This document shows, piece by piece, positions 31,633 to 38,322 of a stretch of DNA of 64,000 nucleotides; within the stretch, counting starts at the first letter, position 1, and every line of letters starts with the position of its first letter. This stretch comes from Natribaculum luteum. Its GTDB lineage: Archaea; Halobacteriota; Halobacteria; Halobacteriales; Natrialbaceae. The position numbers and the translations under genes were made by a program. The notes below the pieces were generated by a model. That model made no database searches, had not been told where the DNA came from, and saw only the letters and a program-made list of their open reading frames with translations. The stretch is taken from NCBI RefSeq assembly GCF_023008545.1, contig NZ_CP095397.1:2232001-2296000 (forward strand). Reading direction: 5' to 3'.

Positions 31633-32781
31633 TCAGACGACGTTTCGTTCGTCGCGAGCGGCCTCGGTCTCGAACCGATCGCTCGAGAGCCGCGAGATAT
31701 CCACCAGCGACGCCTCGCCCTCGAGTGCGAGTTCGGTGACGAGTTTCCCCGTCGCGGGAGCGTGCTGGAAGCCGTGGCCGGAGAAGCCGGCGGCCGTGAG
31801 CAGTCCCGGCACCGTCTCCTCGACGACCGGATGGTGGTCCGGCGTCACGGCGTAGAGGCCCGCCCAGCCGCGTTTGACCCGCGATTCGGGGCCGAAGTAG
31901 GTCGTCCACTCCGCGGCGGCCTCGAGGGCGTCGGCGGCCCAGTCGAAGTCGATCGAAGTCGGGTAGCCGTCCGGATCGTGGTCCGGGTCCGGACCCGGGA
32001 AGTGGCCGCCGACGAGTGCGTCGCCCTCGCGTTCCGGGCGAAAGTACGACCCGGTGTCCAGATCGATCGTCAGCGGATCGGTCTCCGGCACCGGTTCGTC
32101 GGGATCGACGACGGCGATCTGCCGGCGTTTCGGTGCGATCGGCAGCGAACAGTCGGCCATCGCGGCGACCCGTCGCGCCCACGCCCCCGCGGCGTTGACG
32201 ACCACGTCGGCCTCGAGGTGGCCGTCGTCGGTCTCGACGCCGACGACGCGGTCTCCGTCGCGGACCAGGTCTGTCACCGGCGTCTTCGTCCGAACGTCCG
32301 CACCCGCCTCGCGCGCCGCCGTCGCGTACGCCTGTAAGGCGAGGTGCGGGTCGGCGAAGCCGTCCGTCGGCGAGTAGGTCGCGCCGACGAACTGCTCGGT
32401 CTCGAGTCCTGGACAGTGCTCGACCGCTTCGGCGGGTGAGAGAAACTCGCTTGGGACGCCCCGGTCGTTCTGCATGGCGACGTTCTCGCGGAACCACTTG
32501 GCCGTCGCCTCGTCGCGGGCGAGAAAGAGGTAGCCCGTCTGCCGGAAGCCGACGTCGGTCCCGAACGTCTCCTCGAAGGACTCCCAGACGCGCATGCTCG
32601 CCAGCGAGAGGTCGACGTTGACCGGCGTCGAGAACTGCGCGCGGATGCCGCCGACGGCCCGTTCGGTGCTCCCGCCGCCGATCGATCCCTTCTCGCAGAC
32701 GGTCACCGTCGCGCCGCGGTCGGCAAGCGAGTACGCACTCGAGAGGCCGACGATCCCGCCGCCGACGACCACCACGTGCAT
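31633..32781 (-). CDS. FAD-dependent amine/amino-acid oxidoreductase (DAO family), copy 1
   Basis: This 382-residue flavoprotein starts at MHVVVVGGGIVGLSSAY, a dinucleotide-binding Rossmann motif, with the FAD-ribose glutamate in VTVCEKG. It resembles sarcosine oxidase/glycine oxidase subunits and the haloarchaeal 'DAO' group. The late segment GFSGHGFQHAPATGKLV is the family's second FAD contact. The alternative ATG at 32808 adds nine residues before the Rossmann start and is unlikely. It is followed downstream by the convergent aminotransferase. A paralogue lies directly upstream on the same strand. Confidence 0.9.
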   Translation of the reverse strand: MHVVVVGGGIVGLSSAYSLADRGATVTVCEKGSIGGGSTERAVGGIRAQFSTPVNVDLSLASMRVWESFEETFGTDVGFRQTGYLFLARDEATAKWFRENVAMQNDRGVPSEFLSPAEAVEHCPGLETEQFVGATYSPTDGFADPHLALQAYATAAREAGADVRTKTPVTDLVRDGDRVVGVETDDGHLEADVVVNAAGAWARRVAAMADCSLPIAPKRRQIAVVDPDEPVPETDPLTIDLDTGSYFRPEREGDALVGGHFPGPDPDHDPDGYPTSIDFDWAADALEAAAEWTTYFGPESRVKRGWAGLYAVTPDHHPVVEETVPGLLTAAGFSGHGFQHAPATGKLVTELALEGEASLVDISRLSSDRFETEAARDERNVV

Positions 32782-32863
32782 GTCTACCACCACCCGATCG
32801 TTACCCATAAGCGTTCGTTGCGTTCGCAGTCACAGACGATCCACGCCGCGACCGAACCCGGCG

Positions 32864-33961
32864 CTACCCCGAGAACCGATCCGGCGACAGTCGTGACTTG
32901 ACCGTCGGCTCGACCGTCCCCTCGAGCGTCTCCGCGAGGACGTCCGCGATCGCGGGCGCGAGCGTGATCCCAAGCCCCGTCGGGCCACAGGCGGCGTAAA
33001 AGCCCGGCGTCTCCGTCTCGCCGACGATCGGGAGTCCGTCGGGCGTCACCGTCCGCAGGCCGACCCACTCGTCGACGACCGAGTGATCCACGAGCCCTGG
33101 GACGACGTCGTCGATCGAGAGCGCTGCCGCCCTGAAGTCGTCGGGAATCCGAAGTTCCGTCGGTTCGTACCGCTGGCCCTCGACGTAGTCGGTCTGGAAC
33201 TCGCCGACGTACGCCCGCGCGTCACCGACCGGCCGGACGTAGCGTCGTGACTCGAAGAGCGTAAACGGGAGGTCGGCCGTCGACTTCCCCTCGAGTGCGA
33301 GCATCGGGCCGAGCGTGTGACACAGTGGGAGCGACACGCCCGCCCACTCGTTGAGCGTCGGTGCCCACGGTCCGGCGGCGTTGACGACCACGTCTGCCTC
33401 GAGGTGGCCGTCGTCGGTCTCGACGCCCGCAACGGCTCCGTCCGCGAGCACGACGTCGGTCACTTCGGTTTCCGTTCGAACGTCCACGCCTCGGTCGCGC
33501 GCCCGGTCGGCGAAGGCGGTGACGAGTTCGGTCGGTTCGAACGCGTGGTCGGCCGTCGTCCGCAAGCCGCCGGAGAACCCGTCGGGTTCGACGCCGAAGG
33601 CGCTCAACTCGGCTGGAGAGACGAACGACGCGTCGACGCCGTACTCCTCGAGCGTTTCGGCTGCCTCCTCGAGCGTCGCGGCGAAGCCCTCGCTCTCGGC
33701 GACGTGCAAGATGCCGAGCCGGTCCGCGCTGATCGCGTCGCGCTCGAGGAGGTCGCCGTACGTCGACCAGGCGCGGTCGCGAAGCCGCTGGCCGAACCGG
33801 GCCGGCGACGGCCGCTCCCACATGAACATTCCCGCGGAGGCGGCGGTCGTTTCGTTCCCCAGACTCGAGCGTTCACACAGCGCGACCGCGTCGTCCCCTT
33901 CCCCGAGACGTGCGGCGAGTGCCGTCCCCACGATACCACCGCCGACGATGACGATGCGCAT
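32864..33961 (-). CDS. FAD-dependent amine/amino-acid oxidoreductase (DAO family), copy 2
   Basis: This 365-residue paralogue of the adjacent gene starts MRIVIVGGGIVGTALAA. It has CERSSLGNETTAASAGMF after the FAD-ribose contact and a C-terminal FYAACGPTGLGITLAP loop that binds the cofactor. In the middle it shares VETDDGHLEADVVVNAAG with copy 1, identically at protein and almost identically at DNA level, while the rest is diverged. It lies 82 bp from copy 1 on the same strand, so the two may be co-transcribed. Substrates could be N-methyl amino acids or D-amino acids. Confidence 0.9.
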   Translation of the reverse strand: MRIVIVGGGIVGTALAARLGEGDDAVALCERSSLGNETTAASAGMFMWERPSPARFGQRLRDRAWSTYGDLLERDAISADRLGILHVAESEGFAATLEEAAETLEEYGVDASFVSPAELSAFGVEPDGFSGGLRTTADHAFEPTELVTAFADRARDRGVDVRTETEVTDVVLADGAVAGVETDDGHLEADVVVNAAGPWAPTLNEWAGVSLPLCHTLGPMLALEGKSTADLPFTLFESRRYVRPVGDARAYVGEFQTDYVEGQRYEPTELRIPDDFRAAALSIDDVVPGLVDHSVVDEWVGLRTVTPDGLPIVGETETPGFYAACGPTGLGITLAPAIADVLAETLEGTVEPTVKSRLSPDRFSG

Positions 33962-34234
33962 GGGTTCCGGTGACACGCAACGATAATAAACCGTTTTGGC
34001 CCGTCTCGTGACTGTTCAGCGCCGAATACTGCCATCGATAGGTAGACGTCCAATTGGCGATCGAATCGATTCGTCCGGACTCGACCAATAAATTTATCGG
34101 CCGCGGCGACCACGAAACGATACTCAAATACTCGATTGGGTACCTATGGTCGGGCTGTCAGCATCGATGAGTGAGACGGAGGGGCGGCGACGACCGCCGA
34201 GTCACCGACGGGGAGCGGCGACGCCGGAGGGAAG

Positions 34235-36097
34235 ATGGGCGTGACGCCACGAGCGACGGCGATGGTCGACCGCATCACGGACCCCTTCTTCGCGCTCGAC
34301 ACCGACTGGCGGTTCACCTACCTCAACGACTGCGCGGAGGCCCTCCTCGAGCGCTCGCGCGAACAGTTGCTCGGTCGCGTGATGTGGGACGAGTTCCCCG
34401 AGACCGTCGAGACTCAGTTTCCCGACGGCTTCTACCACGCGATGGACGAGCAGGTCCCCGTCTCGTTCGAGGTCTACCACACGCCCCTCGAGACGTGGTT
34501 CGAAGCGCGTGCGTACCCCTCCGAGAGCGGACTGTCGGTGTACATGCGCGACGTCACCGACCGGAAAGAACGCGTGACGAAACTCGCCCAGCGCGACGCC
34601 GTCGTCGAAGCCCTCCAGGACGGTGTCGTCACGCTCGACAGCGACAACCGTATCGCGTCGATCAACGACACCGTCGAGGACGTCCTCGAGATCGATCGCG
34701 AGGACGTGATCGACACGCACGTCGAAACACTCCTCGAGCAGGCGTCGGTCGCACCCTCCGACGCGGTCGCGATCGGCCAGGCCATCAGCGAAGTCGGCAT
34801 GGGCAACGCCGCCTACCGGCAACTCGAAGTCGACTTCGCCGACGCGGCGGGCACCGAACGGGTCGGCGAGATCAGGATGGCCCCGATCGACCACGGGAGA
34901 GCGAGTATCGCGGGTATCGTCCGCGACGTCACCGAGCAACACGAGTACGAACGCGTCGTCACTTCGCTCCACGAGATCACGCGGTGGCTGCTGCGCTCCG
35001 ACGACCCCGAGGAGATCTGTGCGATCGCCGTTCACGCCGGGAGCGACCTCCTCTCGTTGCCGATCAGCGGGATCTGGCTGCTCGACGACGAGCACGGCTA
35101 CCTCGATCCCGTCGCCGGCACTGCAGGTGCACACGAAGAGTTCGGCGGCCTCCCGCGATTTCACCAGGGCGAGGGCCTCGTCTGGGACGTCTTCGAGGAC
35201 GGTTCGACCAGGCGGTTCGACGATCTCTCCGACGTCGAGGGGACCTACAATCCCGACACGAGGCTTCGGTCCGAGATCGTCGCCCCGATCGGTACCCACG
35301 GCATCCTCGTGACTGCCTCGCTCGAGCCGGACGCGTTCGACGAGACCGACACGGACCTCCTCTCGACGCTGGTCGAAAACACCCGTGCAGCGCTCGACCG
35401 CGCCGACCGCGAGCGCGTGCTCCGCGAACGGACCGAGCAACTCGAGCGCCAGACCGAGCGCCTCGAGGCGATCGCGGAAGTGCTCTCGGACGACCTGAAA
35501 CGACAGCTCGAGGCCGTCGACGAGGCACTCGAAGACGACGCCGACGAGTGGGAGTTCCCCCTCGCGGAAGATACGGTTACGACGACCCTCGATAGAACCG
35601 AACGACTCGTCGACGACGTCCGCGAGTTCGCCCGGAACGCGATCACTGTCGGTCCTCGTGTGCGAATCGACCTCGAGACGGCAATCGACGCCGCCATCGA
35701 AGCCTCGCGACTGGAGAGCGCCGCCGTCGTCGTCGAAGAGAGCGCGACGCTCCGGGCCGACCCCGACCGGTTCGCACACCTCCTCGAGACGGTCTTCGAC
35801 GACGCCGCGGCACGGTCGGACGGCGACCTCACCGTCCAGGTTGGACTCGTCGGCCTCGAGGAACCCGTCGACGGTCCGCGCGGGTTCTTCCTGCTCGACG
35901 ACGCCGCGGAGATCCCACCGACGGCCCACGAAGAGGTTCTCGAACCGGCTGCAGCAGACGCCGATAGCGACGGACTCGGACTTGCCGTCGCCAGGGCGAT
36001 CGCACAGGCACACGACTGGTCGGTCTCGATCTCGATCGGCGACAACGGCGGAACGCGATTCGAAGTGCGGGACGTGACCACCCTCGAGCGCCCCTAG
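34235..36097 (+). CDS. PAS-PAS-GAF sensor protein with degenerate histidine-kinase core
   Basis: This 620-residue cytosolic protein has a PAS domain (residues about 8-110, ITDPFFALDTDWRFTYLN), a second PAS (about 118-240, ALQDGVVTLDSDNRIASIN), a GAF domain (about 247-390) and a kinase-like C-terminus. The DHp helix reads LEAIAEVLSDDLKRQL where haloarchaeal kinases have a SHDLRNPL-type motif, so aspartate D419 replaces the phospho-histidine. The N-box is FDDAAARS instead of F.NA, and the G1 box is DDAAEIP instead of DDGPGIP. GLGLAVARAIAQAHDW remains. It is therefore probably a pseudokinase. GGAGG precedes the ATG by about eight bases. Confidence 0.9.
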   Translation: MGVTPRATAMVDRITDPFFALDTDWRFTYLNDCAEALLERSREQLLGRVMWDEFPETVETQFPDGFYHAMDEQVPVSFEVYHTPLETWFEARAYPSESGLSVYMRDVTDRKERVTKLAQRDAVVEALQDGVVTLDSDNRIASINDTVEDVLEIDREDVIDTHVETLLEQASVAPSDAVAIGQAISEVGMGNAAYRQLEVDFADAAGTERVGEIRMAPIDHGRASIAGIVRDVTEQHEYERVVTSLHEITRWLLRSDDPEEICAIAVHAGSDLLSLPISGIWLLDDEHGYLDPVAGTAGAHEEFGGLPRFHQGEGLVWDVFEDGSTRRFDDLSDVEGTYNPDTRLRSEIVAPIGTHGILVTASLEPDAFDETDTDLLSTLVENTRAALDRADRERVLRERTEQLERQTERLEAIAEVLSDDLKRQLEAVDEALEDDADEWEFPLAEDTVTTTLDRTERLVDDVREFARNAITVGPRVRIDLETAIDAAIEASRLESAAVVVEESATLRADPDRFAHLLETVFDDAAARSDGDLTVQVGLVGLEEPVDGPRGFFLLDDAAEIPPTAHEEVLEPAAADADSDGLGLAVARAIAQAHDWSVSISIGDNGGTRFEVRDVTTLERP

Positions 36098-36120: not shown

Positions 36121-38322
36121 TCACTCGAGTTCGTCCTCGATCACCGACCGGTTCTCGCGAATCGCGGCGGCGTCGTACTCGAGGACGTCGTCGCCGGCGT
36201 CGATCGTGAGACGGCCGTCGTCGGTCCCTTCGCCCAGTTCGACGACCGGAGCGACGCCGTCGAACGCCTCGCGAACGGCGTCGGGGTCGGCCGTCTGCAC
36301 GAGCGCTCGAGCGGGCTGTTCGTGAAACAGCGCACCCTCGACGTCGACGTCGCCGGGCAGCGAGACCGCGAGGCCGGCGTCCTCGTCGACCATCTCTGCC
36401 AGGGAAACTGCCAGCCCGCCGTGGCTCACGTCGTGGACCGCGAGCGTCTCGTCGGCGTCGGCGACGTCGGCCAGCGTCTCGACGAACGCCGCCGGCTCGC
36501 CGGGGAGCACCGGGAACCGATCGTCGCCGTCGAACTGCGCGAGGTACTCCGAGCCACCCAGCCGGAACTCCCCATTCTCGAGTGCGAGGTCGCCGACGAG
36601 TACCAGCTTGCCCTCCGGCTTCGATTCGAGCGGCGGGGCGTCGTAGCCCGACTTCGTGCCGACCATCGCGAGCGTCGGGGTCGGCGGGATCGGACCCGCA
36701 ACCGAGTCGTTGTACAGTGAGACGTTGCCGCCGACGACGGGCACCGAGAGGTTGGCACACGTCTCCGCGAGCCCGTCGACGATCGCCGTAAATCCACCGT
36801 AGACATCCGGTTTCTCGGGGTTGCCGCCGTTCAGACAGTCGACCGCCGCGAGGGGAGTCGCCCCCTTCGCCGCGAGGTTCGTCGCGTTCTCGAGGGTGAC
36901 CGCCTTCGCTCCCTCGAAGGGTGCCGCGCTCGTCCAGTTCGGCGCAGCGCCGGAGGAGATCGCGAGACCCTGCTCTGTCTCTCGGATCGCCATCACCGCT
37001 GCGTCGTCGCCCGGCGGGACGCTCGTGCGGACGCCGACCTCGTGGTCGTACTGGCGGTAGACCCACCGCTTCGACGCGGTGTTCGGACTCGAGACGACCG
37101 CCTCGAAGGCCTCCTCGAGGTCCGTCTCGGGGAGGTCGGTCTCCGGCACTTCGGGTTCTTCGGTCGGAAGGTCGTTCATCGGCGCGCCCTCGCCGAGGAA
37201 GTGGGCGTCGACGTCGACGACCGTCTCGCCCTCGAAGGTACAGACGTAGTTGTCCGCCGTAACCTCGCCGATGACCGAACAGCCCAGGTCGAACTTCTCC
37301 GCGATCTCGCGAACCCGCTCGACGTTCTCTGACTCGACCTCGTAGCACATCCGTTCCTGGGACTCGGCCAGCAGGATCTCGAGCGCCGACATGTTCGGCT
37401 CGCGCTGGTGGACTCGCTCGAGTTCGATGTGTGCACCGAGGCCGCCTTTTGCGACCATCTCGCTCGAGGCACCGCCGAGGCCGGCCGCGCCGAGGTCGCG
37501 GGCCGACTCGACGATGTCCTCGTCGATCAGCGCCTCGTTGGCCTCGATGAGCAGCTTCTCGGCATAGGGGTCGCCGACCTGCACCGCCGGTCGGTCTTCC
37601 GTCTCGGCGTCCTCCGCCAGGTCCTCGCTCGCGAAGCTCGCGCCGCCGAGGCCGTCGCGTCCCGTCGCGTTCCCCACGAGGACGAGTTTGTTCCCCGGCT
37701 CCTGTGCTTCGGCCGTGACGAGTCGATCCTCGGTGAGCAGTCCGACGCAGGCGACGTTCACCAGCGGATTCCCCTCGTAGTCGGGGTGGCAGTCGACGCT
37801 TCCCGCCACGGTGGGCACGCCGATGCAGTTGCCGTAGTGGCTGATCCCCTCGACGACCCCCTCGAGGAGGTACTTCGAGTGCTCGCGGTCGAACGCGCCG
37901 AAGTAAAGCGAGTCCGCGAGCGCGATGGGGTAGGCCCCCATCGACAGCGTGTCCCTGACGATACCGCCGACGCCCGTCGCCGCGCCGTCGAACGGATCGA
38001 CGTAAGAGGGGTGGTTGTGGCTCTCGATCCCCATCGTGATGTAGACGTCTTCCTCTTTCTCGTCTGCGCGCCCGCTGGCGCGATCGGCGTCGGCGTCAGC
38101 CGACGACGTGTCGTCCGTCGGCAGTGCGACGACCGCCGCGTCGTCGCCCGGCCCGACGACGACCTGCTCGCCCTCGCTCTCGAACGCAGACAGCAGCGGT
38201 CTCGAGGAGCGGTACGCGCAGTGTTCGCTCCAGAGGTTCTCGAACAGCGCCGCCTCGGCCGGAGTGGGCTCTCGTCCCAGCTCTTCGACGACGAGTTCGC
38301 GGTCCGAATCGGCAAGACTCAT
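36121..38322 (-). CDS. purL: Phosphoribosylformylglycinamidine synthase II (PurL)
   Basis: This 733-residue small-type PurL converts FGAR to FGAM in purine synthesis together with PurQ and Pur[18 protein letters not shown] is the N-terminal signature, [20 protein letters not shown] carries the catalytic histidine, and two AIRS-fold halves follow. An acidic insert of about 15 residues ([20 protein letters not shown]) lies just before the catalytic strand. Length matches archaeal and Gram-positive PurL. PurQ and PurS are not in the window. The sensor gene converges on it from the left, 23 bp away. Confidence 0.96.

Follow-up and report, generated by a model that had tools for sequence, protein, structure and literature searches.

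A family of haloarchaeal PAS-PAS-GAF proteins whose histidine-kinase-like core has lost its catalytic residues and may serve as a binding module

Pseudo-histidine kinases are known in bacteria, and passages of the open-access literature describe proteins against which a haloarchaeal example may be set. DivL, described as devoid of both kinase and phosphatase activity, is reported to bind DivK~P and, weakly, TNP-ATP (PMC4211667), and NifL, a PAS-PAS kinase-like protein, is reported to trap NifA through protein contact (PMC12540587). Among the archaea, RdmS is described as binding and hydrolysing ATP despite a missing H-box (PMC11784639), and the archaeal histidine-kinase-like proteins classed as “HisKA, no HATPase” are reported to keep the histidine and to be missing the ATPase domain (Galperin et al., 2018; PMC5847659). 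Archaeal two-component signalling is largely unexplored, and the family described below, in which the H, N and G1 boxes are lost family-wide in archaea with the fold kept, appears to be new, as open-access literature at the level of passages yielded no recognised description of this haloarchaeal, or an archaeal, histidine pseudokinase family, a weak negative. Because censuses rely on HisKA and HATPase_c, such a family can readily be catalogued either as a simple PAS/GAF protein or as a conventional kinase.

The locus lies in a 64,000-nucleotide stretch of the Natribaculum luteum genome (contig NZ_CP095397.1, positions 2,232,001 to 2,296,000), the whole of which is called the window here, and its features are collected in Table 1. 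The initial annotation had read it as a full-length open frame with a ribosome site, encoding sensors in the order PAS-PAS-GAF ahead of a histidine-kinase-shaped core, and these points hold: the plus-strand frame 34235-36097 comprises 620 codons with no internal stop, the domain order is borne out by Pfam and by alignment, and the GGAGGG motif is present. The true start, however, is more likely to be the GTG at 34241 than the ATG at 34235, judging from aligned orthologues, since the codon of Natribaculum breve aligned to the window's ATG is ATC and the codon at the position of the GTG is GTG in 23 of 39 orthologues (ATG in 3 others); in 15 of the 39, GTG or ATG stands at this position without any in-frame ATG, GTG or TTG upstream. 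GGAGGG precedes the GTG by 9 nt and the ATG by 3 nt. Residue numbering starts at the ATG throughout. A short out-of-frame ORF with an ATG start (34167-34244, plus strand) has a TGA stop that shares bases with the likely GTG start (GTGA), and a comparable short ORF is present in N. breve; the overlap could have arisen by chance, since any GTG with a Thr codon after it yields TGA. A scan of the region with a promoter and terminator consensus that does not cover archaeal promoters gave no match.

Table 1. Features of the pseudo-histidine-kinase locus, in window coordinates.
Feature	Residues	Position	Strand	Basis or remark
GGAGGG		34226..34231	+	Likely ribosome-binding site; read from sequence
Pseudo-histidine-kinase gene		34241..36097	+	GTG start, 618 aa; likely true coding region
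PAS_4, first PAS domain	12-112	34268..34570	+	Pfam
Second PAS domain	119-232	34589..34930	+	Pfam
GAF_2 domain	256-388	35000..35398	+	Pfam
Signalling helix and DHp-like helical hairpin	370-468	35342..35638	+	AlphaFold2 model; profile match to solved kinases
D419, phospho-histidine position	419	35489..35491	+	Alignment; His never seen in family rows examined
Catalytic/ATP-binding-like (CA-like) domain	476-612	35660..36070	+	Pfam, AlphaFold2, structure comparison
Degenerate N-box LLETVFDDAAAR	516-527	35780..35815	+	Alignment
Degenerate G1 box DDAAEIP	555-561	35897..35917	+	Asp retained, glycines gone
G2 motif GLGL, retained	580-583	35972..35983	+	Alignment
purL, convergent neighbour		36121..38322	-	23 bases separate it from the pseudokinase gene

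The catalytic boxes were compared in an alignment of 104 family rows, 87 of them distinct over the last 230 residues, with 28 other rows; three of the latter (L216, L218 and L220) were excluded, since no kinase core is seen in their frames and only GAF matches, leaving 25 intact kinases. This alignment agrees with the assignment of the window's phospho-histidine position, N-box (FDDAAARS), G1 box and G2 motif in the initial annotation, with T519 and D523 at the two N-box asparagine positions. The further statement that all key residues had been lost is slightly overstated but largely stands: the phospho-acceptor histidine (0/87 family members versus 25/25 intact relatives), the first N-box asparagine (0/87 versus 24/25), the second (4/87 versus 25/25) and the first G1 glycine (7/87 versus 25/25, both G1 glycines being present in all 25 intact kinases) are gone, and 78 of the 87 distinct members lack the histidine, both asparagines and the first G1 glycine all at once. 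However, the G1 aspartate (76/87 versus 25/25) and the two G2 glycines (81/87 and 78/87, each versus 25/25) are kept, and since these persist, some weak nucleotide binding may persist as well. What is conserved at position 419 is the loss of histidine rather than the aspartate that the initial annotation had singled out for comparison. Asparagine, threonine, serine, glycine, glutamate, arginine, aspartate, lysine or alanine may occupy the site, aspartate is rare (3/87), no tyrosine occurs in the 104 family rows, and conservation of the aspartate itself was therefore rejected on this variability. Four residues beyond the histidine position, an asparagine or threonine belongs to the phosphatase motif; asparagine stands there in 23 of the 25 intact kinases, whereas the eight residues commonest in the family (83/87) exclude asparagine, and threonine occurs in 3/87. 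A phosphatase-only function through the usual motif is thus unlikely.

The fold of this core is nevertheless predicted to be retained. An AlphaFold2 model of the full protein (36 sequences; mean pLDDT 79, pTM 0.49) gives alpha/beta PAS- and GAF-like domains, predicted helices at 370-433 and 445-468, and a CA-like alpha/beta domain whose lid (561-579) is uncertain (pLDDT about 40); the core modelled alone (47 sequences) reached a pLDDT of 76 and a pTM of 0.69. A profile of the core matches the solved kinase cores 8f71 (E 1e-10), HK853 (E 7e-7) and DivL (E 4e-4), and VIA-align placed DivL (4q20_A) on its top row with Z 15.2 over 213 residues at an rmsd of 8.1, followed by 4kp4_B (Z 14.2), with kinase cores almost throughout the listing. 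In the whole-model fold search the rows were multi-domain, mostly with rmsd above 20, and were used for domain order alone; a Foldseek match of the full model to NifL-NifA, among the top rows at E 4e-15, reflects domain order more than superposition, because its rmsd is 24. At the level of Pfam, the HATPase_c match of the window protein (residues 509-611) falls just below the cut-off (24.9 versus 26.4 bits) and HisKA gives no match; across 36 family members scanned, HATPase_c matched in 30, and HisKA was absent from the 13 Pfam families matched.

The family occurs in Natrialbaceae and neighbouring haloarchaeal families. Its nearest named relative, in N. breve, is 96% identical; 59 of 61 related genomes searched gave some match, and almost every genome of the window's taxonomic family has an orthologue of 51-100% identity, one genome (G008) being an exception. 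At E <= 1e-70, matches occurred in 99 of 341 sampled genomes of the class, or in 95 after removal of four (G094, G146, G198 and G233) in which the matches are intact kinases of another family. GTDB contigs supplied 77 named loci; 58 of them (L144-L201) belong to the family, and the taxonomy labels of the tree rows place members in Natrialbaceae, Halorubellaceae and Natronoarchaeaceae. In a tree of the GAF domain, which omits the degenerate columns of the kinase core, the family is set apart by a single branch (29 rows versus 31 others, support 100/99; four long-branched rows dropped and named family rows thinned), as it does in a fuller GAF tree of 96 rows (71 family rows versus 25, SH-aLRT 98; a further row was without a GAF match). 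In the first of these trees, intact paralogues from the same taxonomic families, the window's own included, lie outside the pseudokinase clade. On these trees the pseudokinase family is monophyletic and has a single origin. Viral relatives were looked for and none was confirmed.

The family's rates of change bear on whether the disabled core is maintained. From an alignment of 26 loci and the window, dN/dS (Nei-Gojobori) was calculated for 23 sequences belonging to five genera (one Natrinema row is filed as Haloterrigena and one Natronococcus row as a Natrialbaceae MAG). The whole-gene values were, for Natribaculum, 0.184 (1 pair); Natrinema, 0.136 (78 pairs); Natronococcus, 0.170 (6 pairs); Haloarchaeobius, 0.066 (1 pair); and Halostagnicola, 0.165 (1 pair). 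The corresponding values for the CA-like part were 0.147, 0.205, 0.275, 0.054 and 0.358, and the highest value for any domain was 0.51, in the second PAS domain of the Natribaculum pair. By this measure the kinase-like core is under purifying selection. Residues largely foreign to intact kinases have also become fixed, or nearly so: R475 and R507 occur in 87/87 family members (20% and 12% of intact kinases), E464 in 95% (0%) and R527 in 92% (0%), the last replacing a histidine found in 25/25 intact relatives. The initial annotation had named orthologues with normal boxes and a gene broken in one strain as the pattern expected of recent decay; the orthologues instead give 0/87 with the histidine, one clade and dN/dS below 1. 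Because the histidine is lost family-wide, the family is a single clade and dN/dS lies well below 1, its suggestion that the gene is maintained for a non-catalytic job is well supported.

The neighbourhood offers a candidate partner. In most loci read, the pseudokinase gene faces purL, and in 47 of the 58 named loci a gene for a REC-HalX response regulator lies between the two, adjacent to and convergent with the pseudokinase gene. In the other loci it lies 2.3 kb further off (1), is absent with purL close by (6), has no match despite room for it (1), or is missing along with purL (2), and one locus meets a contig edge. The regulator carries Response_reg and HalX domains (Pfam, one copy scanned), and its phospho-Asp is present in 47/47 rows that cover the site, the one other of the 48 loci with a match stopping short of it. 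The pair is also found in distant members (37-47% identical by tblastn). However, the window's genus and several other lineages keep the pseudokinase with the regulator missing at the locus. One HalX regulator is encoded elsewhere in the window's genome, and one single-contig genome (G011) keeps the pseudokinase at 73% identity with zero HalX domain matches. Conversely, the genus to which G006 belongs has the pseudokinase gene at another place and the regulator still with purL, and REC-HalX stands beside purL in G058, G166 and G008 (L128, L129 and L130), where the pseudokinase gene is absent; in these three loci the regulator is an orphan, no intact kinase gene being recognisable in the vicinity. 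Nine loci lacking the pseudokinase gene were searched for an intact ancestral kinase next to the regulator, and none was found. Constraint on the core was not relaxed without the regulator (47 rows with it versus 13 without, p 0.73; six loci of unclear regulator status, owing to a contig end, no purL near, a moved gene or a truncated regulator, and one further row were omitted). There is thus no sign of co-loss, as the core is unrelaxed without the regulator and the regulator stays with purL without the pseudokinase; strict dependence on the HalX regulator is not supported, and the conserved neighbourhood could be plain synteny. A codirectional gene of the ornithine-cyclodeaminase family lies upstream in 33 of the 58 named loci and also accompanies copies away from purL in G006 and G033, which is a possible hint of amino-acid metabolism; in G013 (L052), a gene of the ornithine cyclodeaminase/mu-crystallin family lies at about -1335 to -319 from the pseudokinase gene. 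No match to this gene family was found upstream of the window's pseudokinase gene. Two adjacent FAD-dependent oxidoreductase (DAO) genes occupy 31636-33976 of the window on the minus strand, divergent from the pseudokinase gene, and one of them is nearest to the glycine oxidase ThiO, below its cut-off.

Across a monophyletic family, then, the aligned kinase core has lost its catalytic residues and its fold is predicted to be kept. Since many related species keep the disabled form, the protein probably works by binding a partner, and on balance we favour a model in which it is a pseudo-histidine kinase whose core has turned into a binding module that signals by protein contact, with a receiver domain as the likeliest class of partner. 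This model proposes a presumably cytoplasmic sensor, dimeric through the DHp hairpin, in which a signal sensed by PAS or GAF would change the helical hairpin, upon which the core would bind or release its partner stoichiometrically and without phosphotransfer, as in the DivL and NifL models. The neighbourhood points weakly to a response regulator rather than to another kinase, and the head-on REC-HalX regulator of most relatives is the leading candidate for the ancestral partner; it cannot be the sole partner, because lineages without it keep the pseudokinase. On the input side, Cys262 (35018-35020) in the GAF domain is found in 71/71 family rows versus 6/32 relatives outside the family, and His267 (35033-35035) in 65/71 versus 0/31 others listed; lying five residues apart, the two are a possible candidate for a thiol, metal or cofactor site. 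A bolder version, tentative and rather doubtful, would have an ancient archaeal pseudo-histidine kinase read the phosphorylation of the orphan REC-HalX regulator, in a DivL-like reversal of the usual flow, with redox or metabolite input through GAF and Cys262 and with later re-partnering in the lineages that lost the regulator.

Of the other mechanisms, the one that fares best follows the initial annotation's suggestion of a scaffold, decoy or allosteric partner of another kinase: the DHp-like hairpin would let the protein form a heterodimer with an orphan histidine kinase that is intact, and so tune it. The window's genome encodes CheA and five sensor kinases whose boxes are complete, several hydrophobic and acidic DHp positions (D420, L425, L458 and D461) are common to the family and intact kinases, and precedents are described in RetS, which forms a heterodimer with GacS (PMC6944256), and in mutated ChrS, which acts on HrrS (PMC9491836). 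However, the nine loci without the pseudokinase gene hold no intact kinase near the regulator gene, and this arrangement seems unlikely. Less likely still is a nucleotide-gated anti-activator resembling NifL, in which the CA-like pocket would bind ADP or ATP and the protein would trap a transcription factor and not a receiver domain: the retained G1 aspartate and G2 glycines and the NifL-NifA row of the Foldseek search are in its favour, but both N-box asparagines are lost, the model is at its least certain in the ATP-lid, and the HalX regulator is the sole transcription factor recognised among the conserved neighbours annotated, a non-exhaustive set. An ATPase or kinase with another acceptor, similar to the H-box-less RdmS and MsmS of Methanosarcina, would have precedent in the ability of such archaeal proteins to bind and hydrolyse ATP (PMC11784639), but it is improbable, as the N and G1 boxes are degenerate in this family as well. 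That a decaying kinase gene is heading to a pseudogene is scarcely credible and recent decay was rejected, for, although the CA-like part evolves faster in some lineages (most visibly Halostagnicola) and one member, from Saliphagus infecundisoli, is missing the first PAS domain, the orthologue comparison already contradicts it, with no internal stops in the orthologous frames listed, dN/dS well below 1, new residues fixed family-wide, a single clade, and retention of the gene in families where orthologue identity is down to 37-51%.

The binding-module model makes the family of interest beyond this locus. A dead core kept through Natrialbaceae and neighbouring families would give the archaea a clear natural example of a catalytic module that has become a binding one. 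The adjacent regulator, whose phospho-Asp is intact, forms a concrete candidate pair with it, and the lineages that lack the regulator serve as natural controls. Among known systems, DivL is the closest working model, with no claim of orthology: it is a PAS-containing protein that has lost the histidine and kept the DHp-CA fold, and the haloarchaeal family is alike by sequence and model. However, DivL has tyrosine where the family has asparagine, threonine, serine, glycine, aspartate and others, and it differs in its sensory layout and in serving the DivK-CckA pathway. NifL, likewise a PAS-PAS sensor with a kinase-like core, provides a second working model, although it uses FAD and has NifA as its partner, whereas the haloarchaeal family has a GAF domain. 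RdmS and MsmS, the MA_type 2 kinases of Methanosarcina acetivorans, are similarly archaeal, rich in PAS and GAF domains and devoid of an H-box, but the haloarchaeal family has lost the N and G1 boxes too. The “HisKA, no HATPase” proteins resemble it as non-enzymatic archaeal histidine-kinase-like proteins with PAS/GAF sensors, and yet they carry the opposite defect, since in the haloarchaeal family it is the histidine that is lost and a degenerate ATPase domain that is kept. The nearest intact relatives found, the haloarchaeal PAS/GAF sensor kinases of the HDLRNPL type (about 27-37% identical), share the same kinds of domain and the same fold, but their catalytic boxes are intact.
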